The notes under the pieces were generated by a model that made no database searches, was not told where the DNA came from, and worked only from the letters and a program-made list of their open reading frames with translations. Shown one piece after another: positions 1 to 63,879 of a DNA stretch of 64,000 nucleotides. Source of the stretch: Tubiluchus corallicola (Eukaryota; Priapulida; Priapulimorpha; Priapulimorphida; Tubiluchidae). The DNA lies in contig JAQGDQ010000003.1 in assembly GCA_030141605.1 (NCBI GenBank), positions 949,501 through 1,013,500 on the forward strand, given 5' to 3'. Position numbers and translations under genes: made by a program. The number at the start of each line of letters is the position of its first letter. The first letter of the stretch is position 1.

Positions 1-507
1 CAGGATGCACAAGGTCCTCTTTAATTCTGGTAGCCAAGCTAAATATTTTTTATATTGTGTGCTAACGTGTAGAGTTTGAGTGCTTTTTACTTGCATAAAT
101 TTTTTAATAGTGTTTTGCTTGTTGTGGAAAATGAATATTACCGTATTGCAGTATCTAAACGGTTGTACCTGTTTTGTTAATATCTAACGTGCACTTTAAC
201 TCCAGCCGATGTTCCAAAAATTTATACGTATTTCATGCTAAAGAGTAAAGTCGTGTCAAGCCAGACTGTGTGTGCTGACTATGTTCGAGATATTTTCTCC
301 AACTTTCTTTATCAAAAAATATAGGTTTCAATATTGTGCAGATTAGTGTTAATAAGTTAATAAGCAACAGAGAATTGCACACAAAATTGGTGATTATTGT
401 TACAAAGGTCCAAGAGTCACATCTGCCATAGATGTCACAACTTTACTGTGCTGTACTGTCATTGCTGAGGGGAAATGATGTTACCAGAGTTTTGTGAATT
501 ATTTCAG

Positions 508-3500
508 GTCGACTCATATTCGACAACTTGAAGAAGTCTATAGCTTATACTCTTACTAGCAACATTCCGGAAATCACCCCATTCTTAGTATTTATTATTG
601 CTAATGTGCCTTTGCCATTGGGAACAATCACAATCCTGTGTATTGATTTGGGCACGGACCTTGTACCAGCCATTTCTTTTGCTTACGAGCCAGCGGAGAG
701 CGATATTATGAAGCGAAAACCGCGAGATCCTATACACGATAGATTGGTAAGAAAACATACGCGCATGTCGTAATTGTCAATGGACAAATTGTGGTTCATT
801 TTGACGTGAACCTCTCTCGGTCTGCAATTATCTGGCCACAACTGTATCTAGACATATTCAGGTCACACTGTAATATATGTGCAAACTTGTATCTGAAGAG
901 TTGCAATCGTTGGAATTTAAGTAAGTAACCCATTGCTAAAATTTTTACATAATTCTGCTTTTATAAAACATAAACAAGGCAAAAATTTAGCTTTTAATAT
1001 GTTGTTAGTAGCGAGCTATTTTTTACCATTTAGGTGAATGAGAGGTTGATATCTATGGCATACGGGCAAATCGGCTTCATGCAAGCAACTGCTGGCTTCT
1101 TTGTCTATTTTGTAATAATGGGCGAGAATGGCTTCTATTCGAGCTTATTAACTGGTCTTCGAGCACCGTGGGATACTAGAACCTTAAACAACTTGGAGGA
1201 CTCATATGGACAGGAATGGGTAAGTGTTGCCCAATGTTAGCTAATGTTGGTTAGTTACTAAAGACACTGAAACGTAAATCGTGGTTATATATTATTTATT
1301 TTTGATCTCTTATATTGGGAAAAGCGCTGTGGTTGAGTGGTAGATTGCTTGGTTACCGCTCCAGCGTTTCTAGGTTCGAATCCAACTCAGCATTTTTCGA
1401 GCCATTTCCCCATTCTTGACTGCCTCTCAGCCTTAATCTGGTCATGTACTTGGGGAAGAAAGGCGGTCGTGCAATGGATTGTGTGCGAAAGTTACGAATG
1501 TAGATGCCGTATACATTAAGCCCACGTCTTTAAGCGTGGGACAATTCTCTCTTCTTCTTATTCTTTTCCTTCTCTTTTTGCTTCTTCGTGAAACTAAAAA
1601 AACCAAAGATAAATTTTCATAAGTGTTCGACCACCTGAAGCCATTGCTCGCTTTCTCTTTTTGGTTTGGTTGTTGTAGTCTTTATTTAAATAATCTTTGT
1701 TCATTGCTTAATTATTTCATTCTTTTTATCTGTACGTCTTCATTTTCTCCACTCACTTTTTATTTCGTTTCATTGCTCCTTTCTTCATCCGTTTGCTCTT
1801 TTTTCCACCTTTTTTTTTTCTTTCCCTTCCTTCCTTTTCTAATGTTTACCTGTCATGCCGTTTCACTTAGTCACTTACAGTGCCTGGGCAACAAGCTATA
1901 GCTTTTAAGTAAATTAAAGATAATTACGATATTTGTGTTTGTGTTTCAGTCGTTTCACAATCGCAAGATATTGGAATACACTTGTCATACGGCCTTCTTT
2001 ATATCGATTGTTATTGTGCAATGGGCTGATCTTATCATTTGTAAAACAAGAAGAAATTCTATTCTTCAACAAGGAATGAAGTAAGTTCTTCTCTATGACA
2101 GAGTAACAAAGCTCGCGTAACTGAGCTGTAAAATAAGCTTTCAAGAATAGCAAAATTATTTAGCTAATTGCGTTCAGGATTTTCTATTGCTAAAATTTTT
2201 TTCCGTCCCTGCCTATCGCTGACGCTAAACCTTTTACGAATTTTGTGTTCCAGGTTGTACTATATATATATGTCCTACAATTCAAAAGCAATTTTACCAA
2301 TTTCTGCATTTCCTATAATTACATTGATTTCGTTTTGCTTAATGTAAAATTTGATACGCCAGCTGTACATGCATGATTTCTTTTCTAATTTATTTATTTT
2401 TCTCTTTTCCAGAAACGGGGTTTGTAATTTCGCCTTGGTGTTTGAAACATGTCTGGCTGCTTTCATGACATACTGTCCAGGGCTGGACAACGGGCTCAAT
2501 ATGTATCCCATTGAGTAAGTTTAAAGTGACTTTAAATTATAAAAACAGTTACTTTAGTATAGTCATTTTACCAACAACTGTGTAATCGCTTGATATAAGT
2601 ATTTCCTGCAAAAACTCAGGTCAGTATACCTGTTTAGACCTGTGTAACCCAGGGCTGGATTAAGACGTCAAGAGGCCCTAAGCACCGAAAAGGTTACGGC
2701 TCCCATATAATTCAGAATAAAAACAATAACTGGAAAATGAAATTATATTTTCAAATCTTTATTTTTATCTTTCAATTATCTTTCGAAATGAAAAAAATTG
2801 ATTTATTGACAGTAAATGGCATCAGTTTTACGCAGCATAAAAAGTGATATTAGATTAAAAATACTTACTTGAAATATATTATGACACATTATATAATAAA
2901 TCATATGAGTCGGGACCAGCTCATGCAGGCTATTCAGCAGCCAGAATGTCGATGCCCATCCGTATCGTTATGTTGTACACAAACACAGAGACCGCCACGC
3001 ATATTCCGGTAACGCGGTGTGTTTTACTTTTGGCTAATTATCCGATATAAAAAAAACTGTGTGGGCTCCTATCCCATGCTTTGTAGTTAATTCAGGACTG
3101 AGTACAGGTTAATCCATTAATGGTTTATCAAAAGAGGCGGAAATACGAAATGAAATACATTTACAAATTGACACCCTCAGCCCACATGCAATTTTTATTT
3201 GATGATTATTACTTGTATTCACAACAAGTGGGAGTGTATAGTTTGATCTCAGCTAAATAATGATAATGAACATTTATAAAACGCAGAAATGTGAAGCTTT
3301 CCCTACAAAGTAAGCGCAAAGGTAAAGGAAATATGCATACCATTTTATTTAATTTTCACATATTATATTATGCAGTAGTGACAATAAAGACGAAAGATAG
3401 TATATCTAGTGATAGAAACAAGAGTATCCCAAGAATTTATGCTAGACGATAGTATTTATCACTTACTCACCGGTAAATTAACCTACTTTATTAACACATT

Positions 3501-3648
3501 ACCTGTTAACATTAACTTTACTTGCAGGTTTTGGTGGTGGCTTCCTGCAATGAGCTTCAGTTTGTTGATTTTCTTTTATGATGAAACCCGAAGGTTTATA
3601 CTCCGACGGAATCCGGGTGGATGGGTGGAAAGAGAAACATATTATTAG
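508..3648 (+). CDS. ATP1A: Na+/K+-ATPase alpha subunit, 3' five exons (partial)
   Basis: Catalytic alpha subunit of the plasma-membrane sodium pump, a P-type ATPase exchanging 3 Na+ for 2 K+. Five exons are visible: 508-746, 1034-1219, 1950-2080, 2413-2514 and 3528-3648, with AG/GT sites and consistent phases. They encode the last ~264 residues, M5 to the C-terminus. M5-M6 includes [13 protein letters not shown] and CIDLGTD, which carry cation-site residues. [37 protein letters not shown] and [11 protein letters not shown] follow. The terminal Tyr-Tyr pair, which in this family caps the third Na+ site, is intact. Length and order match animal alpha subunits. No frameshift is seen. The N-terminal exons must lie left of the window, since position 508 follows an intron acceptor. 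Identification is near certain; which alpha paralogue it is cannot be told. Confidence 0.97.
1322..1600 (+). repeat. tRNA-derived SINE in a Na+/K+-ATPase intron
   Basis: It has a Pol III promoter layout: A box TGGTTGAGTGG at 1330-1340 and a perfect B box GGTTCGAATCC at 1373-1383, tRNA-like spacing. A non-tRNA body of ~140 bp follows, ending in a short stem: CCCACG at 1521-1526 pairs with CGTGGG at 1535-1540. A pyrimidine-rich tail follows to about 1600. There is no intact tRNA fold with an acceptor stem, so it is a SINE rather than a tRNA gene. The borders are approximate because I see no clear target duplication. It lies between the 2nd and 3rd visible ATPase exons. Confidence 0.7.
2650..3130. 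mobile_element. hAT-like MITE fragment (left end only)
   Basis: It starts with CAGGGCTGGATTAAGAC followed by AGGCCCTAAGC, the terminal pattern of a widespread class of hAT-derived MITEs. It is similar to the CAGGGCCGGATTTACC end of the complete element at 33213-33411. No matching inverted right end was found before the next ATPase exon, so the copy is truncated or diverged. The right border is a guess. It lies in the last ATPase intron. Confidence 0.35.
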
Positions 3649-7400: not shown

Positions 7401-8093
7401 TTACCATGTGTGGAGGTATGCGTTACCCGGTATTCCTAGTTTCCGGTACAAGTGAGATCCATAAGGTAGATACGTTTGATGAAATTGGTGTGGAAATATT
7501 GGCGAATGGACGTGATCATACGGAAATCTCACTCCATCAACTCGATAGTGCAGTGTCTGTTGTGAGTTGTAACCTCCACCGCCACCGCTGCCTGTAAATG
7601 AGAAGTCAAATGTTCGTTATTTGACTAATTGACTCGTTTTACCCATTCAATAATTATTATGGATATAATTATAAAGCAACAAACATTTTATATGTTTTGA
7701 TGTTTGTCCCACAATTTTTCATAGCGTTTACTCTACCAGGATAAACTAGTGTGGGAGAAGTTACCATTTAACTAAAAAAAAACTTTCATTCATTCTCCTC
7801 TGCCATGGAACAAACTATACGTGTCCACGTGTTTTATGTACATATCCATTGTCGTTAAATAATTAACAATTGCTTTTTAGTGCTATAATTCAATTTCCGG
7901 TGTGACGACTGCTCACAAGCTATTTCTAACAATATTATTATTAAAAAGTCCCGCAATAAAAAATTGAAAAGCGCGACAGTTTAGAAATTCAATCACCTCT
8001 GCATTACCTTCAATTCTTCATACCTACTATTGTACTAAACACGTCCGTTACTTACATGGTATTCTTACTATTATGTTATTAGTTATCTTTTGT

Positions 8094-8162
<69 letters not shown>

Positions 8163-8460
8163 TGTGGTTAATATGTGATTATGTTAGAAATGATTTTCTG
8201 CAATTTGAAAAAAGTGTGGTATTTCAGTACAGCAGTGTATGCTATATACATTGCTGTACTAAAATACCACACTTTTTCAAATTCGTTTATTGCGATTCTT
8301 TTTTATCAAGTTCTGTTTTGTCATGAAACAGTTAATAACAGTCATGTCATAACAATTCCGTTGGTACTACATTTAAAATATAGAGCAGCAGTAGTTGACA
8401 CTTACCGTAGGCCAAGCAAGCCAATAGAAGGCACAAGCTCAAAGTTAAAAGCCACTTCAT
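7401..8460 (-). CDS. small secreted His/Tyr/Pro-rich protein (81 aa), stand-alone module
   Basis: Two exons: 8460-8406 (55 nt, ATG at 8458-8460, donor G|gtaagt, phase 1) and 7591-7401 (acceptor tttacag|G). They sum to 246 nt, 81 residues. Residues 1-19 form a textbook signal peptide (Met-Lys-Trp, a Leu/Cys/Ala-rich core, then AYG). The mature chain opens with a Gly5 run and has no cysteine, seven His, seven Tyr and several Pro. Residues 32-81 form a module with GVRFPYD, FHQTYLPYGSH and LGIPGN, ending YLHTW. This module matches the C-terminus of the DOMON protein at 12551-16815 at 39 of 50 positions. The function is unknown; secretion is inferred from the signal peptide. Metal or surface binding through the histidines is possible, but that is inference. 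A family name cannot be given. Confidence 0.85.
8095..8158. repeat. (CT)n microsatellite
   Basis: About 32 uninterrupted CT units in the intron of the 7401-8460 gene. Apparent Ser-Leu open frames here are repeat artefacts. Confidence 0.97.
8201..8284. repeat. near-perfect 84-bp hairpin (MITE or miRNA-like) in an intron
   Basis: The left arm 8202-8234 and right arm 8251-8283 are reverse complements over about 33 bp, with one indel in an A-run and one C/T difference, around a ~15-nt loop. The arms contain GTGTGGTATTT and AGTACAGCA. The hairpin lies in the intron of the 7401-8460 gene, close to a (CT)n tract. Its size equals a pre-miRNA, but the near-complete complementarity equally fits a foldback MITE. 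No clear target duplication is seen. Confidence 0.85.
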
Positions 8461-12550: not shown

Positions 12551-15500
12551 TTACCAATGGTGTAAATAAGGATTTCCAGGAATCCCTAGCCCCCTGTAGA
12601 AATGTGAACCATATGGCAGATACGTTTGGTGAAATCTGTGCGGGAACAAAGGTTGGTGCACGCGGTCGTAAGGGAAGCGGACACCTTGAACATTGTAACG
12701 AAGAGGATAATTGTGCTCCTTGCGTTGATGATGGACACGTTGAGGGTATACCACTGGCCGGACTGCAACAACTTTAGTTGGCTGTTTCTCAATAGCTACT
12801 TCCTCTGGCAATTCTTCGACGACAGATACCTCAGTTGACGCTTTTTCGACATTTTGTGGTTTCACTTCCAGTTGTTCAGATGGTTTTTTGCATTTGGTGA
12901 AATCAAGAAATGGACCTGCGGTTGGTATCGCTTCGTGTTGTCGTATTGAGCCGCTGGCTTCGTGATAACTACCAGGCCTGTACGTGTAGATATGAAATTT
13001 CTGTATAAATTCTTGTTGCATTGCACATTAATGAGTGTATTAACAACAGTAAAATTAATAAAAGAGAAACAAGTGAAGCCACAGTGAAGCCACTTTTCAC
13101 AAGAATCGAGATGGCAAACTCAGTCAAAAGTGCGACCCTATTATGTTCGACAAGAATTGCTCTAAATGTTATTAAAATCAAAATAAGCACTTCAGCTTTT
13201 AATGAATATGACACTTCTACAAATTTATAGAAAATTCGGCATTTTATATTTGCATGAAATTTTGAATGGTTTGGATTATAGTATGTCAGTATATTCTGGC
13301 GTTTGAGGTTCAAAAATCACTTTAATTCCAATGTTCAGAAAACTAAAATTTGTTAGAAAGAACACCAATCCATTTCTGAGTAGTCAGTTTAACAGCAATA
13401 ATGCATAAATTCTAGCGCTAATTTTATCGATTTACCTGTCTGGTATTAGCAAAGTCACACCATCTAAATTAACATCCTCTTCTGTCCCGTCTCCTTTTAT
13501 TGGTTTAGTAAACGCTAGTTGCTGAACATCATCAAACCGTCTTGCACCTACTAGTTCACAATTTTGAATAGCATCTATCTTGGGTGGCGTAGCTCTATCT
13601 TCGTTATACCTTACGTGGTAAACACTAAGAATTAGTGCAGGGAATATCGTAAATATATATGCACAGTTTGAAGAGCAGAAGATTCTATTCCACAACATCT
13701 TTTGTTCATAATTAGTTTTCTGCGACAGTTTTATGCAGTTAAATTTGTTGCATGTATGGATACTTTAACAAATAAATAAAATAAAATAAAGCTCATCCAG
13801 TATGCCGCACAACCAAAAAGAGCAGCAGCCACGCAGGTGGCAGTCAGTTTTGAGAGTGCTATTTTTTTAGAAAGTTTTTGTAGTGCGCTTGCTGGAATTG
13901 AACCTTACGTAGGCAGATTGCTTTGCGCCAGGATAGCGGTGTCATTGTTAGCTTGCAAGACTAAAAAATCGACAGCTTGCTTATGTAACAGAAAAGTACT
14001 TTTTGCAAGCTCAGCGTTTAAAGACTACAGTGTTCTTTCACAAAATACAAAAACAATTAGGATTATACTTGCTAATTTAGTTTCAGCTTATATATACCTA
14101 CCCGTCAAAGATTGTGCCTTTACCATCACTTGTTACCCAACCATAGCAAACGTCGGATTCAGCCTGTATAAAACATTTCTGGTTTAATTTCATTAGATTA
14201 GCTTAATCTTCAATCTTGCACTTACAGATTAAAAGATCAACCACCTGCGTGCTAGTTTGGAGAGAGGAAAGTTTGAAATCTATTCTATATATAAAAGTCA
14301 TGCGTAATTAGTCTCACATTTAACTCTTATTGAGCTGCTCTGGAGTTAACCATGCTTCCCATGTTTATGCCTTGAGTGCTGGCTGGCCTCAGTGATTTGT
14401 TTACCTGCTGAGAGTTTAATTTCGTGTAGATTAAGTGCAATTATTATGGCTTCGCAAAAGTGAAGTTTGTATAAAACATTGCGAAAACTTATTTATGAAT
14501 AGAAAATTGCGAAAAGATGTATTGCAGAAAGCAAGATTGAGAAAAAACTGTCTCAAACAGGTTTGAAACCAAAAAAGTTGCAGAAAAGCAGTGTTAACTG
14601 ATATTTTAGAAAACAACTTTCTGCCTCAATCACACACATTTCATTCGAGCACCATAAAGCGTTTTAATCTAACATAGGGAAAACAAGTCCAGTGATATAA
14701 ATCGTATAAACACACGAAAGCAATGCTAAATTAGAAAAGTTTGTAAAAGTTTACACTACCACTGGAACTCGAACTCAGGCCTTCTGCTACCCGGCCAGCT
14801 ATGCTAGCCACTACAACCACAGAAACACTCATTATACTCATATACTCATTACTCACCTCCTCAACCTTTATTGTATTTGGGACTGACCTAAATGTGTGAC
14901 TGTTTACAGAAGTACACCAACCGAAAACTTTTTTTATCTCGGACTTTACTAGAAGTCCAGAGTTCTTAGGTCAGCAGATAAAATGGGATCGGAGGGAATT
15001 ATTGGGAAAATATATGTTAAGCTGAAACAAGCAAGGTATTAAAGTGCAAAAATGCAAGTTAGCTTGTAATAGCGTTCTGAGCATACTCTTCTTTTTAAAG
15101 ATACCGCGCGGTTGACAAAAGGTTACCGTTGGTGTACTTCAATGCTTTGCATGCAGTCTGCGTTACCATTTGTAAACCGTTCTTTGAAAAGCCGAGTCCA
15201 ACCCATCCAGCAGTGCGAACAGTCAAAATGAAGAACACTTTGCCGTCTTCTGGCTCCGGCCAATACTCGAGCGCGTAAGTTTGGTCCTTATTGATCCATG
15301 TTCCATGGCAATCAAGACCTAGTTAAATATGCAACAATAAATTATTTATCCAACAATCAAACAAACAATCAGTCAGTCAATCAGTCAGTGAGTCAGTAAT
15401 GTCAAAATTGGGTGTACTTCATCGGTGTACTACAACGATTTTAAGCCCATATGCCACACTCTTCTTCATCGCAGAATGGGTACATGCTTGCGGGTTGTCG

Positions 15501-15725: not shown

Positions 15726-15818
<93 letters not shown>

Positions 15819-16815
15819 CATGCACTGAATGTTAAAATTAGTGAAGGACTTAAAGCGCGTTAGGCGTGAATTAAGATACAGTTTTCAAAAATTGCTGTTT
15901 ACAATTCACATTACTACGCAGTATTATTACAAATACAAAACTATCTTACTCTACAATGAAGCAGCTAGACTAATAATATCACAGCCATTAGGAACTTTAG
16001 GTACTGCATGAAAGAGACAAAAAGATATATCACAAGAAGGTGATAAAAAAGTACTTAACGGCTACACTTACCTTCAAGTGGTGCTACCTCTGGTAGCGTT
16101 TGTGCTGCTGTAAAAATATGAACAAGTATAAAAACAAATAAAAATAATAACAAAAAAGTAGAATAGTAAATGCATACTTTCAAAAAATACTTGAAAATTG
16201 CACAAAAAGAAAAAGTAATGGCCGTGCATAATGAATTACTGATATTCATCACTTTCAGAACTAAACCTAAGCGTTTCGAAAAAAAAATTGTAACATATGT
16301 TAGATTTCTAAATTAAATTTCTTTATTTTATATAGAATATAAACAGTAAATAAATATTTATAAACATTCGTAAAAGACAGTATGTCTATAAAACCTTTTT
16401 TATTTAACATTTTAATTAGGCCATGAAATTAAAATGACGTAAGAGTACGTTAAGCTAAAAACTGTATGTTTGATAGTAGTAATTATGATTCATGAGTGTT
16501 TGCACTAAACAACAACCAAACCAATTAACAGACAAATAATCCAAATAATGAATTTTGAGGTTCTGCTTGTTGGATGAAAATTAATGATTCTAGTCGTATG
16601 CTGCACCAACCATTTTTAAGTGGTCACAACAAATGCTGAGGTATTTAGGTATTTGAGAAAGAGGATGCATAAAAAGGACTACCATAAAGTAAATGTAATG
16701 AGTCGTTCAGAGATCTTTGCCAATATATTTATATAAAGTGTAATGAATTTCTCGTTTAGTAACGTAAAAATATACCTGCTATTATCGGAAGAAGCAACAA
16801 GATTGAGGGCTGCAT
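12551..16815 (-). CDS. secreted DOMON-domain protein with C-terminal His/Tyr/Pro module (301 aa)
   Basis: Six exons on the minus strand: 16815-16776, 16107-16072, 15318-15167, 14163-14102, 13624-13436 and 12977-12551. Phases run 1,1,0,2,2 and sum to 906 nt. Residues 1-14 are a signal peptide (MQPSILLLLPIIAA). Residues 27-155 form one DOMON domain: an LDCHGTW start, GWVGLGFSKNG at 63-73, SDVCYGWV at 79-86, then RATPP and NCELVGARR. DOMON domains are beta-sandwiches that bind haem or sugar, and also occur beside copper monooxygenase domains, which are absent here. Residues 161-250 are a Glu/Val/Pro/Lys-rich linker. Residues 252-301 repeat the module of the 7401-8460 gene. The first exon is chosen because its hydrophobic peptide and phase fit the 36-nt second exon. 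The exon 3 donor (ATG|gtaacg) is supported because it rejoins the DOMON core. An extracellular role is inferred. Confidence 0.85.
13890..13935 (-). repeat. tRNA-derived SINE head (degenerate)
   Basis: On the minus strand an A-box-like TGGCGCAAAGC at 13930-13920 is followed by a B box GGTTCAATTCC at 13903-13893. The spacing is short and no cloverleaf can be drawn, so it is a relic. It lies in a DOMON-gene intron. Confidence 0.4.
14757..14823 (-). repeat. tRNA-derived SINE head
   Basis: On the minus strand an A-box-like TAGTGGCTAGCA (about 14814-14803) and a B box GAGTTCGAGTTCC (14776-14764) sit at tRNA-like spacing in an intron of the DOMON gene. No complete tRNA fold is evident. Confidence 0.6.
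15723..15815. repeat. (GA)n microsatellite
   Basis: About 46 GA units inside the second intron of the DOMON gene. It produces artefactual Arg-Glu and Ser-Leu frames. Confidence 0.97.
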
Positions 16816-21432: not shown

Positions 21433-26460
<5,028 letters not shown>

Positions 26461-31100: not shown

Positions 31101-34100
31101 CACTGATTGGTTATTTGCATGACAGTGACTGTTAACTGTCAATCACCTGTGACGTCATCTAGCTCCGCCATTGGTCAGCAGCATTACAGGATATCACAGA
31201 GATGTAACTTGATCCAGAAGTTTGCCAGTGCTTAACATAGCGGCTAAATGTAACTAACATTGTATTGCATACGGACTGTGTTTTATGTTTCTAACTTGTA
31301 AGTAGTTGTTCTGTGATATTAATTTTATGAAAAATTAATAAATATAAATTATTTTAAGAAAGTATAAAATATTTAAAAACTTATAAAACATACAAAATAT
31401 TTGCGCTTCATCCTAGTACTCTCCTTTGCATAGTACACGTTGAGAATTAAACGACGAGGGCCTAAAATGAAGTTTTTATCTTTTCGTTTGTCCTTTTGCT
31501 CAAACATTTTTTGTTTACTTTAAAAGATACTAAATATAATTTTGGCTAAATAAAATTTGGCTGTTTGTAAGATTGTAAGTACTGCATGTAAAATAAATGC
31601 TTAAACTTATTAATCAATTCGGAACATTGTTTATGTTGCTTTTACTTTTCGCATAAAGACCTTAATAACAATATAATTACAAAAAAATGTTCACATCCTA
31701 CCTACATGTAAATTATGTGTAAGCCTAGCCTGGGTAATATACTGGCTGAGCAATGGAAAACGATGTGCAATGTAACGTAATGCTATGTAATGTGAATACC
31801 TATAGCGATTCTATGGCCTTTTTGTTTTTGTAGATTGAATTTCCATTTATTGGTGCAGTTGGTTCATTGGAATTCAATGAGCTAACACTGATTTCGACCC
31901 CAGAGGTAAGAAAACCATGTAACCCGTCTAAAATTAAAATTACCAATTAATCGCAGAAAATATCATAATTATTGTACATGTATGTTATTGATTGCAACTG
32001 TTGTAGTTGTAATTGAACAATTTACTTGTGCCTGTATTAAACTCATAGCTGGTTTCGAGTCCTGCTGTTACAGTTTTTTCTTTAGTGATAGATGTACTAT
32101 TTCTTTTCAGCCATTTCTGCATGCACCCAGGATTTCTTTCTCAGCTGACCCCCAGAAAAAATACACACTTGCAGTATTAGGTAATAACATCAGTGTTCTT
32201 GCTAAAATGATATCAGTGATATTGTGTGACTTTTGTGTTCTTTCTTTTGTGCATTTTCCTGTGCTGTGGTGTAATGCTTAATCTATATAAATACCATTCG
32301 TATTACCATTATAAAATCCAAAAGAATGAATTATTATTACTAATAAATGGTTTTTGTGCCGTTTTGTTCTTCTTTCACACCGATAAACGTCATCCTTTCA
32401 TTTTTTATTATAGTGAAATTTTAAATTAAATTAACTTGGTGGATTCTTAAGTGCTCCAAAAACTTAATTTTTTTAAATCACGTGAATTTTGTTATTCGGT
32501 GAGGGACGTCAGGTAGGTGTAGGACTTTGACGTTGCTACAGGTAATATCTAGTGTTTTTTTTTTACAATAATCACCAGAAAGCAAGATAGTGGCCTAGTG
32601 GGTTATTCTTCAAGTGAGTGAAAAAGGTACAGCAGGATGGTACAAAAGGATGAAGAAGTTCAACACATTAAATAATGTGGATATTAGTTTATTTAGGTAA
32701 CGGAATAGTTAAAAAACATGGGTGCAAATGACGTGACCCAGACTCTTTACACTGCGTAGATAAGAAGGTCAACTCTCTCTAGCTGACGCATGGGCAATAC
32801 AATTATAAGATACTACAGGCGATTTGTTACAGTAACAGTACAGACAACGATATGTATATAATTTTGTAGAAAGGCGAAGAGAGAGGAGTAAAACGAATAG
32901 CCAGAGCCGAGGTATATATATATTATTACTATATATATATATATATATATATAGATAGATACTTAGAATACGTAATGTAAGCGCTTTATACGCGAACAGA
33001 CTAGGCTTCTCTGTGATTACTTGGTGGATGTGATATCCACATATCCTCTGATGGTCTTACATCTGTACTTATTTTCATAATGAAGCCACGTAGTCACACA
33101 TAAGTGGTCAGTTAAAAATTTGAGAGCTACACTAAGAAGACCCAGTCTTTCTTTGAAGTTCAAAAGGTCTTATTGAGGATCCAACTTAGCTCATGACAAC
33201 AGTAATACTACTCAGGGCCGGATTTACCTACTTATGGCTCTTAGGCCAAACTCACAGCGGGCCATTTTATGTGGGCTTTATACAGAGGCCCCATACTCCG
33301 AGCTCTAAACGAGGTTATACGCTGGCATGCTGCGGGACAAATTAGTTTCAGTGGAACCCCAGATACCCGTGGGCCAATGGTCTACTATGCCTATGGGTAA
33401 ATCCGGCCCTGTCCAAACTCAGTGCAGGAAATGCATGATATAATGGCTAATTTGGAAGGGGCATTAACAGTTAACTAAATCCATCTAATGGGTAAAACCC
33501 TTGCTTACGAAAGCAGTGAGTTTAATGTCATACTATGGGACGCATACATCAATATACTATATGGTATGGGGAATGCATAAACATGCTCTCTAAGGCTGAC
33601 AAGGTAGGCCATCAAGATAATTCCGTGGTATGTGAATATTTATTTATTTTACTAGCCTAAAGTGGTGTTTTTTATTACTTATCAACTGGTCTGATTTTTA
33701 GATGTTGATCCAGTTGGAACAGAGACGACGAATACTGATAAATCGTACCTACTTCAATTGACGGTCAATATACCGGGCAGTAATGTTGAACAAGGATTGA
33801 CTTTGATGGAATATGAGAAAGTAGACGAACCCGAAGATGTGTCATTTTTTGGAAATGGTACTAAGTTTCATTTTCTATTAAACAGGAATGTTATTAATGT
33901 AATTAATTGTAAAACTTTTTGTTTTTAACGCTTGTAGCCCAGAGGCGCAGTGACAATGATTACCGAAATTTATGTTTAGGTCTGGCCGCATAAAAATTAT
34001 TTGGTGTCGTATGTTGTCTGTAGATGGCACTGGAACCGTATCGAATCTCTAAACGAGTGTAGAGTACCCATATAGTTACTGCGTAATATAAGGACTGTAA

Positions 34101-35324
34101 ATGAGTGTAGTTATACATGTGCTACAATATTGCGCTCTGTGTTGAGGAACAATAGCGTAACAATTTTGGAATCACTGAAAAGACTCTTTTTCAATAAAAC
34201 GAAACCAAATCTTGTAAATCATTTCGCATATCTCGTTTACACTATCTTCCGTTTTTCCTGTTTTGTTTGTTCCAGAATCCAGACGACTGCTTATGTTTTT
34301 ATGAAAACAAAATAGTCTCGCAAATTTACATTTTTGATAAAGAATATTTCTCATAATTACCCGTTTCATGATAGACAGAATTTTTGCTAAAATTCAAAAC
34401 ATTTTTATGAAAAACCAACCTTATAAAAATCGCTAAGAGTCCATTTGAGGTACTCTTAAAACATTAGAAGATACTGTAATGCTTTCAAAGACTAACAACA
34501 TTTTGATGATCCAAGCTACCTAATGTGTTTCTGAATCAGTGTCACTGAATGTTTTTATGGTAAGTGACTGGGATTTCTAATCACGGCAGACATCAGACAA
34601 GACTGCACCAGACAAATGGTGTTCTGCAACAATGGTCTTTCGTCAACAATGTCAGCCTCGTTGATATAATTAACTCTACGACCTTCTCCGGTGTTCTAGT
34701 TCTGTTGTGGAAATTAGTGACTAATCATTAATAGAAACCCTCAGACGGTGACAGTAGCGTCTTTCTTCACCCCGTCTCTCTCCTTAACTACTACTTTGTC
34801 ACTAACACTTTGCTGTACGTTGTTTTTGTATGAGACAAATAAATTCAAATTCAGTTCAATTCAATTCCTTAGGCATTGTGTTTTTGAACACCGGATAATG
34901 CCGTGCATGACTGTAAACTGCTTCGCTGTGTATACTATCTAAATATAGTAATTATTTGTCGTAATAACATTTTTCATACTTATTCGTAGTGAAATTACTG
35001 TTACGCAGATATCGTATGTGTACAGAATATAATAATGACAACGCTATAAAGCGACATCCTGTGTATTTTGAATATTCGTCACCCTGAACTCTAAATAGAA
35101 TAATTACAGCGTATATAAAGCACTCTTATTATTTCATCACATTTTGTCTAATTACAGGTGTTCATCGCATTGTTACCTTAGTATATGAGCAACCAGAAGG
35201 CAGGATCGTGTCGACAAAGACCATTTCAAATCGAAAAGATTTTGATATAAAAGCGTTTATTACTGACAGCACTAATGCTACTGATTTACTGCCACATGCA
35301 TGTAATGTGTTTGGCTTGCCGTAA
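28180..35324 (+). CDS. secreted PEBP-family protein, tandem copy 2, degenerate pocket (217 aa)
   Basis: Six exons: 28180-28218, 29073-29222, 31834-31905, 32111-32180, 33702-33857 and 35158-35324, 654 nt. Intron positions and phases match copies 1 and 3. Exon 1 encodes a signal peptide (MRLRVFCFFITFM). EREILPDDF (about 28-36) and GVHRIVTLVYEQP (163-175) place it in the PEBP family. However, the pocket motif DPDAPSR is replaced by DVDPVGT (111-117) and the following His-Trp by QLTVN. The gene is open throughout with clean splice sites, so it is not an obvious pseudogene. It may have lost phospholipid or anion binding. Exon 2 is longer than in its neighbours (150 nt against 93 and 96), adding an acidic Asp/Thr stretch. 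Secretion is inferred. Confidence 0.88.
29223..31833 (+). other. large intron 2 of PEBP copy 2
   Basis: Contains no exon I can support. It carries a telomere-like run of GGGGTTAG units near 29345, the SINE head near 30530, a GGACTCGGACTCGGACT run near 30718, and a block at 31100-31180 with TGACGTCA and two CCAAT-type motifs. Confidence 0.5.
30530..30592 (+). repeat. tRNA-derived SINE head (degenerate)
   Basis: CTCTAGCGGTAATCGCTC (A-box region from about 30533) and AAGTTTGAATAC (B-box region, 30575-30586) align by eye with the SINE head at 1324-1385. It lies in an intron of PEBP copy 2. Confidence 0.45.
32912..32955. repeat. (TA)n tract
   Basis: Alternating TA units interrupted by TTATTAC, in the fourth intron of PEBP copy 2. 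Confidence 0.9.
33213..33411. mobile_element. hAT-like MITE with 16-bp inverted repeats
   Basis: CAGGGCCGGATTTACC (33213-33228) and GGTAAATCCGGCCCTG (33396-33411) are perfect inverted repeats enclosing 167 bp without coding capacity. The flanking 8-mers do not match, so the target duplication has decayed or the ends are misplaced. It lies in intron 4 of PEBP copy 2. Confidence 0.85.
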
Positions 35325-38229: not shown

Positions 38230-39742
38230 ATTTAGTAACAACTGAAACAGTTATATTATCGGGTAGCTTAAAAAATTCGAGAGGCATTAGCAACCACAAA
38301 CAGAACTATGGGGATTTTCATGAAGTTTCTTAACGAGGTGGCAGAATATTTATTTGTTTTGTGAGATGATTCCAAAGAATGACCATTAACTAATCGTAAA
38401 GCATAGTTTTGAAGTACATTTAATTTGATGTATGACTCTGTTTTCACTTTTTGGAACAGTATGCAGGCATATAAATAATGAGGCAAAATTAAAGTTTTGT
38501 AAAAATTTGAATGTTTGTTTGTTTTGATAGCTGTCCTCTGGTTTGTCGAAGGCACGAAGTACTTAATGCCATTTTTATATATGTTGATGAACTGCTCTTC
38601 CCATGTAAGCATATTGTCCAACTTAGCGCCTAAAAAATTAACAACTTTTTACTGCACAAAAACAGCATTTTCTATTTGCAAAGATATAGCAGCTAAATTT
38701 TCAGTATTGTTAATTGTTGGGGATAATACCATAAATTCTGTTTTATCACTATTCAGTTCTAGCTTGTAATAATTAAATGCAATGTTGATATTCTTTATGA
38801 CTTTTTCTAAGGACTGTTTTGCAATGCTGATATTCTCGTCAGCCAGATAAATAGTCGTGTCGTCTGCATATTGCGTAATACTTGAATGTTAGAACGTTAG
38901 AAATATTGTTGATATAAAGGTTAAACAGTAGAGGTCCCAACAGTGCGCCCTGCGGGATACCTCGTTGAAAGTCAGCCCAATCTGAGAATGTTGTAGAGTT
39001 TATTTTAACCCGCGGCTTTCCATTTTGTAGGTAATCATTAATTAATTTTAATGCTGATTGTTCAAATCCAAGTTCTTTTAAATTATCTAATAGTAGGGTG
39101 TGATTTAAACTGTCGAAAGCTTTACTTAAATCTAAAAAAGCTGCTGCCACATATTTGTTTTTATCAAGATTATCTCGCCAATTTTCAGTTACGTTTATTA
39201 CAGCATCGACAGTTGAATGTATTTTTCTAAATCCGAATTGATGTTTCGATAAGAGTTCATTTTGATTGACATACGTAATAATTTGATCATAAATTACTCT
39301 TTCCCAAATTTTACTCAGACAATGAACTATTGATATTGGTCTGTAATTTATTGGTTCATCTTTAGCATTCTTTTTGTGGATTGGTGTAATATTAGCTGTT
39401 TTGCATTGATGAGGAAATTTGCCACGCATTATTATTTGGTTAGTGATATAGGTTATATGTGGAGCAATTAAATGCATAGTGTTCTTTAGAATTTTTATTG
39501 GTATGTCAGATGTGCCACTACCTTTGTTGGCATCTAAATTATTTATTATTTTTAAAATATCAGCAAAAGTAACACTGGAAAATGAAAATTGGTTATTTGC
39601 AGGTCCTACAGTTTTTAGTTTGTGTTTTATGGTATCAGTATAATCATTCCGCAAATTAACGTTTTCGAGGTTAACAAACGTCTCATTTAACAAATTTGCA
39701 ATATCTTTGGGTTTCGTTATTGTAGTATTGTTGATTTTAAGT
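38230..39742 (-). mobile_element. 5'-truncated non-LTR retrotransposon (LINE) with RT domain
   Basis: Minus-strand reverse transcriptase. An open stretch at 39735-38886 carries the palm and finger motifs: NYRPISIVHCLSKIWERV, FGFRKIHSTVDAV, FLDLSKAFDSLNH and RGIPQGALLGPLLFNLYINN. The catalytic YADD follows at about 38868-38857, but in another frame, so there is one frameshift near 38885. One in-frame stop follows near 38650. The thumb and C-terminal region are open from 38621 to 38268. The upstream endonuclease is missing, so the copy is 5' truncated. Only two disabling lesions suggest a fairly recent insertion. The family is CR1/Jockey-like by motif style; the exact clade is uncertain. Confidence 0.9.
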
Positions 39743-41734
39743 TGATTTCATTTTTCAATTCACCCCACAAATCTGATTATGTTGTATGTGTGTTTGCATT
39801 TCTCGTGTATGCGTATTTCTTGGGTATGCGTTTCTCGTGTATCCCGTGTTTTCATTATCTGTATGTGAAGACCTAGCATCTTTCATTATTCGACCGGCGT
39901 TAGAATGGTCCTTGTTATTGCCTGCACAATACGAGGTGGTCAATATAAACGAGCTAGGCCTATTCACAAGTTTAAATAACGTTGCGTAAAATTTGAAATA
40001 ATAATCACATCATTCTGGCGCATTCTTTGCTAACTAATCAAACGTTTAAATTACTTTGTATTGTCAATAAGATCAATAATGTATTTTTTGGTGAATCAGC
40101 AATGCATACTGGGGACAGTGCCGCTTTACCAAGTAAGAATTTTCTTTTCCAATTACATAAGTGTTTCAAACAGGTAATGGCAATGTTTAGTAATATAACT
40201 TTGCATGGAAAGTTTTTTCGAATATATTTTAGAATTCTCTTCTTTTTTCCTTTAAATCCTTAACTGTCCATTTAAACGATGACTTTTTTGTTTCTTATCA
40301 CATTACCTTCTTATAAGCGCTCCAACTTAATAGTCCATACAGTTTACCAGTTATCACGACTCTCTACATCTATATCGTTACAATCTTTAGCTTTGTGTGG
40401 ACCTCTCTTGTAACATAGTACAACCACTTTCGTTTATTTGTACACCACAAACAGCTTACCCCCTTTTTTATATACCAACAGCTCATTTGCTAGAAAGTGC
40501 ACTTTCGAGTTATATGTAGATAACTGTTGTTTTTATTTCCACATTCCAGTGACTTTTTGTATTTCTTGTTCTTTTCTCAGTATTTCGTTTACAGTTCAAA
40601 ATCTAGAAAATGGAACTGATTAATTTTTAGGGGTTTTTGTACGCGTTCTTATACGAATTTGTCTTTTCATGAAGAGAGTAGGCCTGCCACAAGGTGCATA
40701 GAAACGTCTTACTCGTCCTAGAAAGAAAAACTTAATTTGCTACGTTCAAGTCAACTGGCACTCTTAGAAAAGAAGTGGCTACTTTCATGTTCAATAAGCT
40801 GATTTATTCCAAGATCAATAGAACATAGAACATCATACACATATCCACACAGGAGTGGTATTATTTTGTTGGTAAGTCTATTCTACTGCATGTTACGTTA
40901 CAGAGCAGTCGACTCAAGCGTTTAAAGACTAGGTTTTATGTGATTTTCAGTACATCGCCTGTATTTACATACAGGGTTGATTAACTGCAGTTCAGCAGCA
41001 TTAACTGCTTGCTCCTATATACGTGCGTGAAAGTTCTGTCGGAACCGGTTGCATTGAAAATTTACACCTGAATAGGCTCAGGCTTGGATAATTACTCCAT
41101 TATGAGCTCATGACACCGGCTGTAAGCTAGTACTACACGGTCACTACGCGTTTCAGCGTCACCATCGCGTCTACAAAACATTAATAAAATTATAACTGTG
41201 CTTGTCCAGGTAGAGTGTTTCGAAACGTCAGACGCGAGACAGGTAACTATGTATTTTCTATAATAACATTGATAACAATGAAGATAATAATAACAATGTA
41301 AAAACAAATTGCAGATTTGCATTGTAATGCTAAATTAAATCAACTATTTTGCCTTATTGAAAATAAAATGCCAAAGCGCAAGAACACGTAATTTAATAGT
41401 GAATTTAAGAGAAGTGATACAATTGATTGTAAATGTATTTAAACTTTTAATTCAGGGTTTGCAGAAATAGTATAATTGTCTTTAAGTTTTGGATGTGCAA
41501 CGAAATTCGGTCACACTTTACCAACTCAAAGTTCAAAGTTTATCTTCTCATCACTATCTAACTAATCACATATAGGTGAACGGACTAAGAAAGCAGCACA
41601 CAAATTGTTAGTGAAAGATTGTCTTGTAGGGCGGATAACTGATAATTTGAAATGACACGTATATAGGGTTATAGAGAGAGTTAAGAATACAAGGGTGAAT
41701 ACAAGGATACTAGGAATGAGTGGTCAACAAGTGT

Positions 41735-45900: not shown

Positions 45901-48817
45901 TAGCAACTAAAAATGACCATATACTGTCTAGAAAATGTAGTTTTTGAAGTCTGTACTATGTTTCTCAATTATGCTAGGCTATGTAATAAGCTTTAACATG
46001 GACGTGCACATTAATAACATAAATACGACATGCTCGATTTGAAGACACTGAATGGTGTGCTGTGTGTGCAGAGAATTGCAAATTAATACAAGAGTTGGAG
46101 TGATGCACCTGGACTAGGGCTATTGTGTATTTCTAATTTGAATACTAACGAGTTTATTATTGGCGTACTGTAGGTGTTATTAGAATGAAATATGCTCTGC
46201 AAGCTAACGAGGATTCAAAACTGCTAATGCGTTTAAAGCCTCGCGAAATTCATGAAATTATGGAATAAAGCAATCACTAAAAATCATTACTCAAAACGCT
46301 GAGCGAACTTTTGTTTTTAATACGTGGCTGTTTGCAGTATATTTTTTTTATATTTTTATACCAGTTTACACTATCATATAATCTTCAGTCTTCTGTGTAA
46401 TTCGGAATTGTGGACCTTGTAAGAAAATAATCAACTACAGATTGGTGCTTTCACTATTTCTGAAGACGTCTTGGAGGTAATTATCGGATATAAAATGGCC
46501 TAAAGTATAAACTATAAAGATTAATGAGACAAAGTCAAGGAAGAAAAATGGACCACAAAGACTAAATGCAAAAGACCCCACCAACAGAGAGATCACTTTT
46601 TAAAGCTTTCCATGGATCAGTTTGTCCATCAAAAAAATTAAACGTGAATCACTCAGGTGAGGGCTTTTGGCAGAAAAAGAGTTTCCAATTCTGAAAGTTC
46701 TTCGTCTTGGAGACAAGCTAAGAATTGGTTTGCGTATCTGGTGTCTATGCAATTTTACTTATTTATAACTGTCTATTTTAATGCACTAATCATGCGTGGC
46801 CCATCATGTAAATATTGTGTTATGTGCAATGCAATTTTTATGTATATCCATATAAAAATAAATTTCTGTTCTATTCTAGGAGAGGTGGGCAAGTGTGACG
46901 TCTGTTGACTCATTACATTCATTACTTCAACTGCTAGCTTCTCATATACTCTATACATGCAAAATGATAGGACATATAGCCTCATAATTAATGGAAAACA
47001 ATAATACTTTTTCGCTTTTATTAATAATTATTTGTGCATTTGTGTGTTTAACATTATCTTATTTTTATTCAAAAATAAATACAATCGTTTGTTACAGGTA
47101 ACTTACGAAGATGCAGCATTAAATATTAGAGATGGACTTGACGAACTAATGCCGTCACAGGTACAAAAATATCTATTAAAAATCGTTGGTCTCAATTTTT
47201 ACTAACCTAGATCTGGAGGAATTTGCTATGTTGTTTGAATCAGCGAGTGTCCTACTTACATAAAAGCTAATGACATTCTTCATCATCATCTAATTTCGTA
47301 AACAATAATTGATCATAGTGTAAAAACTACTAGTATTTATCGATTATAGCTTTTGCTACCGGACTATAGCATTTTCGTCATTACAGGTCAAGATAATGCC
47401 TGAAATTTCTTGGATGGCTCATCCTAATAATTATTATGCTATCATAATGGTTGGTAAGTACAATATTTTACTTGAAACACTGTTAAAACGCTTTGTATGT
47501 ATTGTCATACAGTGGAGCATCTGAACAAGGTGCTATGTTTACTCATTCGGAGTATGATAGGTGTGTGCTACTGAAGAAAGCTTAAAAACAACATCTTCAA
47601 GATAATCATTAACTATTTGCCGTGTGCCTAATATCGGCTAGAATTGAACGAAAATATAGGTACATACAGAGTTTAAGTTTTATTTTGGTATTTTTCTTTT
47701 AAATACCCCAGACAAAAACAACGGGCATATGTTAACTTCATAGAAAATAAGGTAAAGTACGAATTGGATGCCAAATGACACTTATGTACATTGAGAATTT
47801 GGAAGTTACCGCGTCAATGAAACTGTCAAAATTCTTGAAGACTTTATCACAATCGAGAGGTTAAGTAATAATATCCATAGCTATTCCTCTTAGACTGCCT
47901 GCGAGTCTCTTGAGTTATCGCAGGAGGAGCTTAGAGATATAAATGTCAAATGGCCAACGGGCTCTAAAGAATACACGATTAACGCATCAGCACAAAAAAT
48001 TTAGATAACTTGTCTTTTTAGATCCTGATGCACCAAGTAGAGACAACCCCGTAAGAAGAGAGATCCTGCACTGGCTTGTTACAAACATACCAGGCAATGA
48101 AGTTGGTAAAGGTGATGTTTTAGCAGAGTATGCTGGCAGCAAGCCACCACAAGATTCAGGTGATTATTTTAAAATCTTCAATAACATCAAATGGAAAATT
48201 CATACTCTCTTACAAGATATTTTAAATTTAACTTTGCACAAACAAACAGAATTATGTTTGAGAAAAGGGACAGTAGTTTGTCTTGAACAAGAATGTTTCA
48301 AGCAGCAGTGACTGAGAGATAAGCATTTTAGGAGTGCATAGTAACGTTTTCACGATTATTGATTTAGATTTAGAATATCTAGGAAATTGAATTCAATAAG
48401 CTCTGGTGTTAAAGTCTGTACCTATTTTCTTGTGGTGCAGGTTTACATCGATACGTGTTCATAGTATATCAGCAACCAGGTAAGATGAAATTTGATTTCC
48501 AACCAATAACTGTGGATTCACGATCCAGTGGACGTCGTGCACGGTTCAGCGCACGAGGATTTGCACTGAAACACGGGTTCATGGAAACTCCTGTTGCTTG
48601 CAATGCATTTCAAGCAAAATTTGAACCCAACGGACGCTTTACAAACTCAATACATAAATCAAGTTCGTCTACAGGAGATAAAAATTCTCCATCATCATCA
48701 CCAACCGTGATAAAACACTCACTGATGGCCTGTTTGTTGATACCATGTCTATCACTTCTAGCAGCGGTAGGACAGAAGATCATGACAGGAGGGCTATTAT
48801 ATGCTCTGAGCACATGA
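42917..48817 (+). CDS. secreted PEBP-family protein, tandem copy 3, with hydrophobic C-terminal tail (261 aa)
   Basis: Six exons: 42917-42961, 44560-44655, 47098-47160, 47387-47453, 48022-48159 and 48441-48817, 786 nt, phases identical to copies 1 and 2. The start at 42917 gives a clean signal peptide ([15 protein letters not shown]). An in-frame ATG at 42866 would add 17 residues. The pocket is canonical: [10 protein letters not shown] (91-100), [11 protein letters not shown], and [14 protein letters not shown] (137-150). After the PEBP fold ends near FQAKF, a ~65-residue extension follows. It has a Ser/Thr/Lys/Asn-rich linker, then a hydrophobic terminus (about 230-261, [18 protein letters not shown] onward). 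This looks like a GPI-attachment signal or C-terminal membrane anchor; copies 1 and 2 lack it. The likely position is the cell surface, by inference. Confidence 0.93.
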
Positions 48818-60111: not shown

Positions 60112-61280
60112 ATGGACGAGAACTGTAAACAAAAACTATCGAGACTGAAAGCCAATAGAACACGGTTTCTCAATTCAGCAAAACAGGCTGGAAAGTCAGC
60201 TTTAAAATTACTAGAATACAGTGTTTTCTTTAGTGTTGCAGCTTTGGCAGAAATCAAAGAAAGTATAGCGCAAATAAAATACAAAAGTTTACCAGTGCGT
60301 CCAAGAAGCTACAAGAAGAAGCATCTGAATTGACAATCGAATCTGCCCAGCAAACTGAGTTAGACGAATTTTTAACTGAGGATGAACAAACTGTAGAAAC
60401 AATCGAGGTGATGTTAATGTAACTGCAGAAAAAATCGGCTGCACTTGAAGCGCTAAAACAGGAGGAATATAGGTCGGCTAAATCTGAAGCTAGTGGGCAA
60501 CAACAATTTTTAGAGCAAATGACCAGGTTAGTAGAGAAACTACAAATTTCACAGAGACCAGAGCAAGAACATTATTCTTTACGTGTGACAATAGTTGACC
60601 TTCAGCCATTTGATGGTGATATTACAAAATTCCAAGCATTCTGGGATGCTTACAAGGCAACAGTGCATGACAATGCCAGATATTCAGATGTAGACAAATT
60701 GACATTTTTGCATGGTAGACTACGAGGTGATGCACTAGCAGCAATCGAAGGATTCCAGGTCACAGGTGACAATTACAAAGAAGTTGTGAAATTTTGGAAA
60801 AGCGATTTGGACAAAAGGACTTAATTATTGATGCACATCAATGTAAACTTGAGAAAATACCGGTCGATGCAGACAACGCAGAAAGTCTAAGAAAGTGCCA
60901 GAACATGACTGAAAAACACTTGAGGAGTTAGGAAGTTTTATGAGAGGATATTAATCACAGGCACTTCCTCAAATTGCCACGTAGTGTTTTGATTCAACTA
61001 CACCTTACCAAGGACAAAACTAAGAAGTGGACTGCTAAAGACTTACGTATAGCACTAGAAGACTACATAGATATGCTTGAAATGACAGCACACATAACCA
61101 AGATGTCTGTCAACAAAGGCGACCACAATCCACCATCACAGATATCCAGCAGTGCAACGAATATGCGTTATAACCAACAGCGAAGTAACCAAAGTGAAGA
61201 AAGACATACAATCTTTGCTGGCAGTGAAAGCAACATAGATCAACAACCAGGAACTGAGCAAGGGTCACCAATCCAACCAT
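60112..61280 (+). pseudogene. BEL/Pao gag region (broken)
   Basis: A short N-terminal helical stretch is open at 60112-60333. The gag core with LQPFDGDITKFQAFWDAYKA is at about 60600-60660, a pattern typical of the gag-like domain of Pao elements, followed by YSDVDKLTFLHGRLRGDAL. The downstream half (60974-61282) is in another frame, with WTAKDLRIALEDYIDMLE. Stops near 60333, 60420, 60824 and 60930 split the reading frame. Confidence 0.8.
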
Positions 61281-61339
61281 GACTCGCATGTCCATTTTGT
61301 GATACTTAGGGTCACTGGGCCCAGCCATGTGAGCAATTT

Positions 61340-61830
61340 CAAACTCAAGAATCTCGCATTCAGTGTTTGAAAGATAAGCAGTTATGCTTCTTGTGCTTTT
61401 ATCCTTCACACAAAGCAAAGTTCTATAAGCAAAATCGTCGCAGAGTGTGGTTTCATTGTAAAGGTGTCAATTCACATGCATCAGCAATTTGTCCTCGCAA
61501 ATATAGTGAGTCTGGTGTGGCAAATGTGCATCGTCGCAGCTCTTGCAACTGGTTGTAGTACTGATCTTGCTACAAGTCAAGTACAGGCGCACATGATGTC
61601 AGTGCTTGGTGACTCAGATATTTTACAAACTACGACGGTGTCAGTCAAATCTAATGTGTTTGCAAAAACACATATTGAAGCATGTGTTCTTTTAGATTCA
61701 GGCAGCAATCATTCATATATAACCACAGAGCTAGCTCATAAGCTCAATCTGCATATTCAGCCTCTGCAAGACGCTGAAGTTTTTTTTGTTTTGGGGCAAA
61801 ACAGCTAGTGAAGATTTCATCAAGGGCTTG
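61340..61830 (+). pseudogene. BEL/Pao zinc-knuckle and aspartic protease region (broken)
   Basis: A Cys/His-rich segment with LCFLCFYPSHKAK lies at 61367-61558. In the next frame (61464-61808) comes ACVLLDSGSNHSYITTELAH, the Asp-Ser-Gly active-site motif of the retropepsin-like domain of this class. Frame changes and a stop after about 61808 disable it. Confidence 0.75.
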
Positions 61831-63189
61831 CGAACATCACAATGTACCTGAAAGCTGAGCATCGTTTTAAAATTATTCAGTGCAGAGTGGTGCAATGCTG
61901 AGCAGCACCAATCAAAAAGATGAATCTTACTGAAGTTTTGAATGATCAGCCAGGCAGTTGGTTTTATAATTTCAAAGCTAAGCATGGTCAAGATTGTTTG
62001 GATGACCCAACTCTTGTTTGTGATGGAGGTCCTTTATCTATTCAAAAGTTACTTGACTCTAGTGTATTTTGGAAAGTAGTTAAATCACGTCGTTATCGAT
62101 TGCCAAATTCCGACCTTGAATTTTTTGAGTCTCGTTTTTTGTTTTTGATTACTAGCACTCAAGAATTGAATAATTCCAGTTTAGGCCAATTATAAGCATG
62201 TCATTCAAGTGTATGCTAAAAGAGTCAAAACAACCAGAAACTGACAATTGAAACACTGATACTGGCAGTTGGCAATGTACATGGGAACATGAGTATTATA
62301 CGAGCAATGTTGATCAATGTTCTAGCTGTTACAATGCAGAGTACAATGTCAGTGATAGGTCTGAGAATTTATTAGATTTTAGTGATGCTCAAACAGTTCA
62401 GTCACACTGTACAGCAACAAACTTGTTTCTAAATAATATTAAGTGTGACCCAATTATAGCACCTCAGTGTATTGCAAACACAACAACTTTGCAGACTGAT
62501 GTTAGTTTAGTATCAATTCCTCAGACAGACTTGGATAATTTTTGCAAGAATACATGTTATGAACAGTATAATGTTGCTAATGTTTTTGCTGATTCAGAAT
62601 GTCAGCTAGGCCTATCTATTACTCTGTGTGAGCCTAGAATTCTAGCTTATGATGTTGATAATTATGCAGAAAGCAGAGATAAATCTTGCTAGAATATATT
62701 GCATATTTCGCAGCAAGTTATGTCTGAAAATCTAACTGAGCCAGCTGCTGGCAAGCTGCCAAATCATAAGTTACAAAACGTCTTTGTTGGCGCAATTGTT
62801 TCTGAAGCTTCTACAGTAGACAATGAATTTGCACTTCATGAATTCGTAACTGCAAACAATTTTGAAGGGCAAAGGGGAGAACAGCGCAATCGCAAACTAG
62901 TTTTGAAACAGACGTTAATCCGATGGTCATGTCAAGCATAACTAATTAATAGTTATCATTTACACTGGGTAGCAAATACATGTGCATCGGGGGAGCACTG
63001 TTGAAGGCATTTCGTTAACACTTTGCAAGCTTACATCTTTCACAAGTCAATGAACAATACACAAAATTGTACATGTGAGTGCTGTAAATTCTGGGATTTA
63101 GATTCGTTGGGAATTACGAATCTCTCACTAATTTAAAGGCAGAAGAAGAGGCGATCGTAGAAGACCATTTTAATAAAACTGCTTACATT

Positions 63190-63879
63190 GTGAACGGTCG
63201 GTTCAGAGTTTCTTGTCCAGTTCGTGATAGAGATAAGTTAGCCAAGCTCCCCACGAATCTTAATTTGTGCAAAGCACGCTTACAAAATGTTGTATTCAGA
63301 TTTACGCAAAATCCAACACTTTTACAAGCATACAACAAAATCTCTCAACAGCAGTTACAGGATGCTACAATAGAAAAGTGTGACAGAAATTTTTCTGCAG
63401 GAAAGCCATTAACTTATTTTCCTCACACCTTTGTCTTAAAAAGTAGCGAGACTTCACCATTACGTATAGTTATTGATGCGAGTTGTAAGAAGAAGTCGGT
63501 GTTATTACTAAATGATTGTTTGTATAATGGCGCAAATCATCTTCAAGTTTTAGCAGCTCTTTTGATTAGGTTTATGATACACAAGTATACCTTGATGGGT
63601 GATTTATCTAAGGCGTTCTTACAAATCGAGCTTGATTACCCCTCCTGTGGTTTGGTTTGTTTTCTTTGGGTGAAAGATATTACAAAGCCAATTTGCGAAG
63701 ACAACATACAGCATTTTCGTTATCAAAGAATTAACTTTAGCATAGTGTCTTCTCTGTATTTGCTAACTGCTACACTTAGGAAGCATCTTACTGAATCTGA
63801 CGAGTACAGTGGGTGCATACTTAGCAGGATGCTAAGTATTGGCAAGTATATGACAATTTTTGGCAACCGTAGAGGATGA
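63190..63879 (+). pseudogene. BEL/Pao reverse transcriptase, N-terminal part (broken)
   Basis: An open stretch contains YFPHTFVLKSSETSPLRIVI with the following Asp-Ala-Ser, then LLLNDCLYNGANH, and motif A in GDLSKAFLQIEL around 63599-63634. The Tyr-x-Asp-Asp box is not reached intact. The frame breaks after 63879 and the window ends. Between 61830 and 63190 only frame-shifted pieces of the same polyprotein remain. Confidence 0.85.

Follow-up and report, generated by a model that had tools for sequence, protein, structure and literature searches.

A predicted secreted microprotein shares a conserved 50-residue tail with an adjacent DOMON protein in Tubiluchus corallicola

DOMON proteins of the dopamine beta-hydroxylase (DBH) type (PF03351; e.g. 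'DBH-like monooxygenase protein 2-like') are the closest described counterparts of one of two adjacent genes that we analysed in a 64,000-nucleotide stretch of Tubiluchus corallicola DNA (termed the window). Like these proteins, the 301-residue product of this gene combines a signal peptide with one DOMON domain. In contrast, Pfam (E ≤ 1) reported in it none of the copper type II ascorbate-dependent monooxygenase domains of dopamine beta-hydroxylase and DBH-like monooxygenase, and its C-terminal part instead consists of a linker followed by a His/Tyr/Pro tail that has no Pfam family.

A second point of comparison is the Knickkopf family of insects. Knickkopf is likewise an extracellular DOMON protein (secretion is predicted here) and, as the available text describes it, has a conserved C-terminal part without a known domain (PMC4140639). 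However, two DM13 domains precede the DOMON domain of Knickkopf, whereas the 301-residue protein has no DM13 domain (Pfam, E ≤ 1). The conserved C-terminal part of Knickkopf also spans approximately 200 residues, compared with 50 in the tail described here, and the C-terminus of our protein (..YLHHW) lacks, by eye, a hydrophobic anchor stretch.

The histidine-rich beak proteins of squid have a Tyr-rich composition. They are His-rich, as is the 50-residue tail (hereafter the module), according to the portion of the source available (PMC9716703). When compared by description only, the module differs from these proteins in its small length, its lack of visible repeats and the conserved order of its residues.

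Gene models of the microprotein and its DOMON neighbour

An earlier note on this DNA had described a signal-peptide exon spliced to a single cysteine-free, Gly5-led, His/Tyr/Pro-rich exon. The frames, splice sites and phase bear out this gene description, which proved correct almost to the base (Table 1). The splice sites of the intron are good by inspection (donor G/GTAAGTG, acceptor TTTACAG/GC, with the slash marking the junction), the phases match, and translation of exon 2 gives a C-terminus that reads ..LGIPGNAYLHTW-stop. Secretion had also been claimed, and the product does look secreted, given a signal peptide with a hydrophobic core that was called by hydropathy and inspection. The predicted mature chain starts at about GSGGGGG and comprises approximately 63 residues, among them 7 His, 7 Tyr and 5 Pro but no Cys, with a pI of 9.2. 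This microprotein is probably the secreted product of a well-supported small gene.

Table 1. Positions of the features found in the window
Feature	Positions	Strand	Description
Microprotein gene	8460-7401	-	two exons; 246 nt in frame, product of 81 residues
Microprotein exon 1	8406..8460	-	55 nt; signal peptide MKWLLTLSLCLLLACLAY, then one base of the following codon; open frame, donor, phase 1
Microprotein intron	7592..8405	-	814 nt; canonical GT..AG
Microprotein exon 2	7401..7591	-	Gly5-led linker and 50-residue module, ends ..YLHTW-stop
Free copy of module	7404..7553	-	39/50 identical to DOMON protein tail
DOMON gene	16815-12551	-	reconstructed from six exons whose splice phases agree; product of 301 residues
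DOMON gene exon 1	16776..16815	-	signal peptide
DOMON gene exon 2	16072..16107	-	rebuilt gene model
DOMON gene exon 3	15167..15318	-	first half of DOMON domain; gene model and Pfam
DOMON gene exon 4	14102..14163	-	AESDVCYGWVTSDGKGTIFDG; spliced model above Pfam DOMON cut-off
DOMON gene exon 5	13436..13624	-	second half of DOMON domain; gene model and Pfam
DOMON gene exon 6	12551..12977	-	Pro/Glu/Val linker and 50-residue module, ends ..YLHHW-stop
Fused copy of module	12554..12703	-	tblastn match to free copy
Hairpin in microprotein intron	8202-8283		near-perfect; arms 8209-8240 / 8246-8277, 94% complementary, 5-nt loop
Outer repeat around hairpin	7940-7960 / 8286-8306		weaker, 81%
(CT)n / (GA)n microsatellites	8095-8158, 15730-15815, 21788-21919, 25166-25437		long, uninterrupted; the first is CT and lies in the microprotein intron
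Cation-transporting ATPase	498-3648	+	C-terminal exons; PF00689 on 498-773 frame
Phosphatidylethanolamine-binding protein exons	25494-25730, 48009-48311	+	PF01161
Possible members of the same family	33695-35324, 48413-48817	+	likeness by eye only; 33695-33928 frame without PF01161 match (Pfam)
Retroelement reverse transcriptase frame	38839-39747	-	PF00078, E 7.9e-26
Retroelement-like frames	60423-63879	+	DUF1759 match on 60423-60824; no Pfam family matched on 63088-63879 frame

The neighbouring gene encodes a protein in which a signal peptide and one DOMON domain are followed by a Pro/Glu/Val linker and finally by the shared tail, and the free copy of the module sits 3′ of this gene in the same orientation. 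Pfam places the DOMON domain (PF03351) in residues 37-150 with an E value of 1.1e-13 and a score of 51.9 bits (cut-off 32.7), and reported no other domain in the protein at E ≤ 1. No relative was found in the PDB by phmmer, either with the whole protein (E ≤ 1) or with the DOMON stretch alone (E ≤ 10). A single-sequence AlphaFold2 model (mean pLDDT 42.6, and under 50 for residues 170-301) has strands in the DOMON part. The top Foldseek matches of this low-confidence model are chains of human dopamine beta-hydroxylase (4zel; E 4.2e-5 and 5.8e-4), at TM-scores of no more than 0.30. The mature microprotein chain, predicted from a two-row input, gave a pTM of 0.10. The low scores of both models are not evidence of disorder or of anything else, because the inputs were shallow.

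Several other features were recorded in the window. The hairpin inside the microprotein intron folds at -48.4 kcal/mol (z -12.9), and no second copy of it was found within the window. Candidate identities are a microRNA-type precursor and the core of a small inverted-repeat transposon, the latter being hinted at by the weaker outer repeat that flanks it. The ATPase is one that we take to be, probably, a Na/K-ATPase alpha chain. Two of four tested pieces matched the phosphatidylethanolamine-binding protein family, and DUF1759 is a family known from BEL/Pao-type elements.

Codon-level comparison of the two copies

The C-terminal 50 residues of the microprotein and of the DOMON protein align without gaps and are identical at 39 positions, as had been claimed. 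The local protein score of this pair is 236, against a maximum of 69 among 2,000 shuffles, and tblastn matches one copy to the other within the window at E 1.9e-25. Compared with the fused copy, the free module has the same residue at each of its six Tyr and five Pro and at five of its seven His. Different codons are used at 28 of the 39 identical residues. In the part from GVRFPYD to the stop the codon has changed at 26 of 36 identical residues (72%), so that the 'roughly two thirds' estimated earlier was right or slightly low. Nucleotide differences between the copies number 11, 7 and 36 at codon positions 1, 2 and 3, respectively, and 14 of the 17 shared fourfold sites differ. The resulting proportions of differing sites are 0.89 for synonymous positions (pS) and 0.177 for nonsynonymous positions (pN).

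Since synonymous sites are saturated in the module pair, an exact dN/dS is not obtainable: maximum likelihood returned a dS of 15.9, which is not meaningful, and NG86 returned no dS. Constraint was therefore assessed by codon simulations with equal branches and assumed base frequencies, in 300 runs at each of four depths (0.4, 0.6, 1.0 and 1.5 proposals per site). When one copy evolved at an omega of 1, a pN as low as that observed (≤ 0.177) was reached in 0/300 runs at each depth. With one copy at an omega of 0.3, low pN arose in 284, 151, 7 and 0 of 300 runs with increasing depth, and jointly with a pS of at least 0.85 in 0/300 at each depth. When both copies were held at an omega of 0.05, the joint result appeared in 0, 2, 34 and 56 of 300 runs as depth increased.

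Because a fully relaxed copy never gave the observed low pN in these simulations, both copies of the module appear to be under constraint. The same constrained pattern of codons argues, from the sequence itself, that the microprotein gene is a functional coding gene. These codons show that the two copies separated so long ago that synonymous sites are saturated, yet the order of amino acids was kept in both. The values of pS (0.89) and pN (0.18), together with the simulations, uphold the proposal of an old duplication followed by purifying selection on the protein.

Outside the module, no significant DNA similarity between the two gene regions was seen on the coding strand: a single piece of 74 nt reached significance, at 74% identity, and it lies inside exon 2 of the microprotein gene. 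In each gene the signal peptide is followed by a first intron in phase 1. The two signal peptides show no obvious likeness by eye and the module exons begin in different phases (1 and 2), so this was no simple whole-gene copying. The DOMON gene or its last exon may have been duplicated in tandem, in a direction that is unpolarised without an outgroup, and one duplicate would then have become the two-exon microprotein gene, in which a signal peptide is joined to the module.

Search for relatives of the module

To define how widely the module occurs, its own genome (343,548,820 bases in 2,344 contigs) was searched at the protein level, exon by exon, with 43 module residues as the query, a design that may miss more diverged copies. 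Only two places were found at E ≤ 0.001, and both lie within the window. With only two adjacent copies in the same orientation, one local duplication suffices to explain them. The suggestion in the earlier note that the module is 'portable' is weakened by this result, as no occurrence in other architectures was seen in the 343.5 Mb genome at that threshold. As far as this search sees, the module appears to be a two-copy local family.

The accompanying claim that no named domain is involved has fared better: at E ≤ 10, Pfam matched 0 families, both with the microprotein and with the 158-residue frame in which the tail of the DOMON protein lies. In the PDB, the best relatives of the module had E values of 0.38 by sequence and 0.057 by two-row profile, neither of which is meaningful. 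Pattern searches gave 62 stretches in IMG/VR contigs and 114 in GTDB contigs, with 0 confirmed in either. These collections are viral and prokaryotic, and therefore say little about an animal family. Also, LPYGSH and further peptide strings had no match in open-licence full texts (supplements were outside the scope of this search). The novelty of the module is claimed only within its own genome, Pfam, the PDB, and viral and prokaryotic contigs.

Possible roles of the shared tail

We tentatively favour a reading in which the module is a secreted binding or cross-linking tail of the extracellular matrix or cuticle, present in an anchored form in the DOMON protein and in a free form in the microprotein. 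Conservation extends to the order of residues and is not limited to composition, which favours a definite surface that either binds or is cross-linked. This conserved order, coupled with the presence of DOMON proteins in extracellular skeleton and cuticle material, leads us to consider a matrix-associated tail most likely. According to the available portions of the respective texts, the nacre matrix of abalone contains DOMON proteins, and the authors of that study suggest a redox reaction that is important in cross-linking (PMC6003135); DOMON proteins are also included in a sponge skeleton proteome (PMC4633127); and others are reported from coral settlement stages (PMC3204972) and from the Hydra basal disc (PMC5080974). 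Knickkopf, which acts in chitin cuticle, is described there as having strong affinity for colloidal chitin (PMC4140639), and His-catechol cross-links are stated to occur in squid beak (PMC9716703). The main text of the Lottia shell proteome paper mentions no DOMON, hydroxylase or monooxygenase. A lead from the chiton radula was dropped: the available text of the radular-tooth proteome paper (PMC6351634) contains no DOMON, and the single DOMON match in a tooth review is the author name Domont.

Under this matrix reading, a specific surface for binding or cross-linking would be built from the conserved Tyr, His and Pro of the module. The DOMON domain, whose family is associated with heme or sugar recognition, would anchor one copy of the module to a matrix component, and the microprotein would offer the module's surface unattached, as a building block that either co-assembles or competes. 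The cross-linking role is suggested by composition alone, and the matrix setting of the pair by analogy. Against this reading, the conserved residue order suits a recognition surface at least as well as it does a bulk structural protein. On a related but doubtful reading, the module would be an undescribed short extracellular recognition domain, made in DOMON-anchored and free secreted forms from adjacent genes. The free form might then tune the anchored one by sharing its partner, as a lineage-restricted ligand or decoy or as a matrix-assembly pair.

Three other explanations bear on the same observations. It is conceivable, but we think unlikely, that the module is a secreted peptide ligand that binds a receptor, either as the free form or as a 55-residue peptide released by cleavage of the DOMON protein between HHQRK and EHNY, which would make the DOMON protein a second precursor. 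A signal peptide preceding a short cysteine-free chain, residue-by-residue conservation, a shared C-terminus, and the dibasic pair directly before the module in the fused copy all accord with such a ligand. However, the free module has an internal RK pair (LYRKLGIPGN) where the fused copy has RG, and basic pairs are therefore unreliable as cutting marks. Furthermore, the C-terminal end carries no amidation Gly, and 50 conserved residues are generally long for a cysteine-free peptide hormone. Less probable still is a metal-binding tail, with the conserved His as ligands of Zn, Cu or Fe and with the module delivering or buffering metal at the DOMON protein. The conservation of five His within 50 residues points in this direction, as does the prediction, in the available text of PMC4140639, of redox or heme/sugar binding by DOMON domains. 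Yet inspection by eye reveals no clear repeat in the spacing of the His, conservation is stricter for Tyr and Pro than for His, and the module matches no Pfam model.

The microprotein gene might also be no gene at all, with exon 2 a remnant of a duplicated last exon of the DOMON gene and the signal exon a chance open frame. The gene model is known here from DNA sequence alone, exon 1 is short, random short hydrophobic frames do occur, and the nearest AATAAA/ATTAAA lies 312 nt past the microprotein stop, as opposed to 49 nt past that of the DOMON gene. This explanation is nevertheless very improbable, given that both copies appear constrained, with no simulated relaxed copy reproducing the observed pN, and that a good donor and acceptor with matching phases lead into a frame that stays open until a stop codon at the same residue.

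Genes for such small secreted products are easily overlooked by annotation. The pair is a clean case of a microprotein with no more than the tail of its larger neighbour, and both copies appear to have stayed under constraint since a duplication so old that synonymous sites are saturated. Should the tail bind a matrix polymer or a receptor, the two genes would make it possible to test directly how an anchored copy is modulated by a free one.
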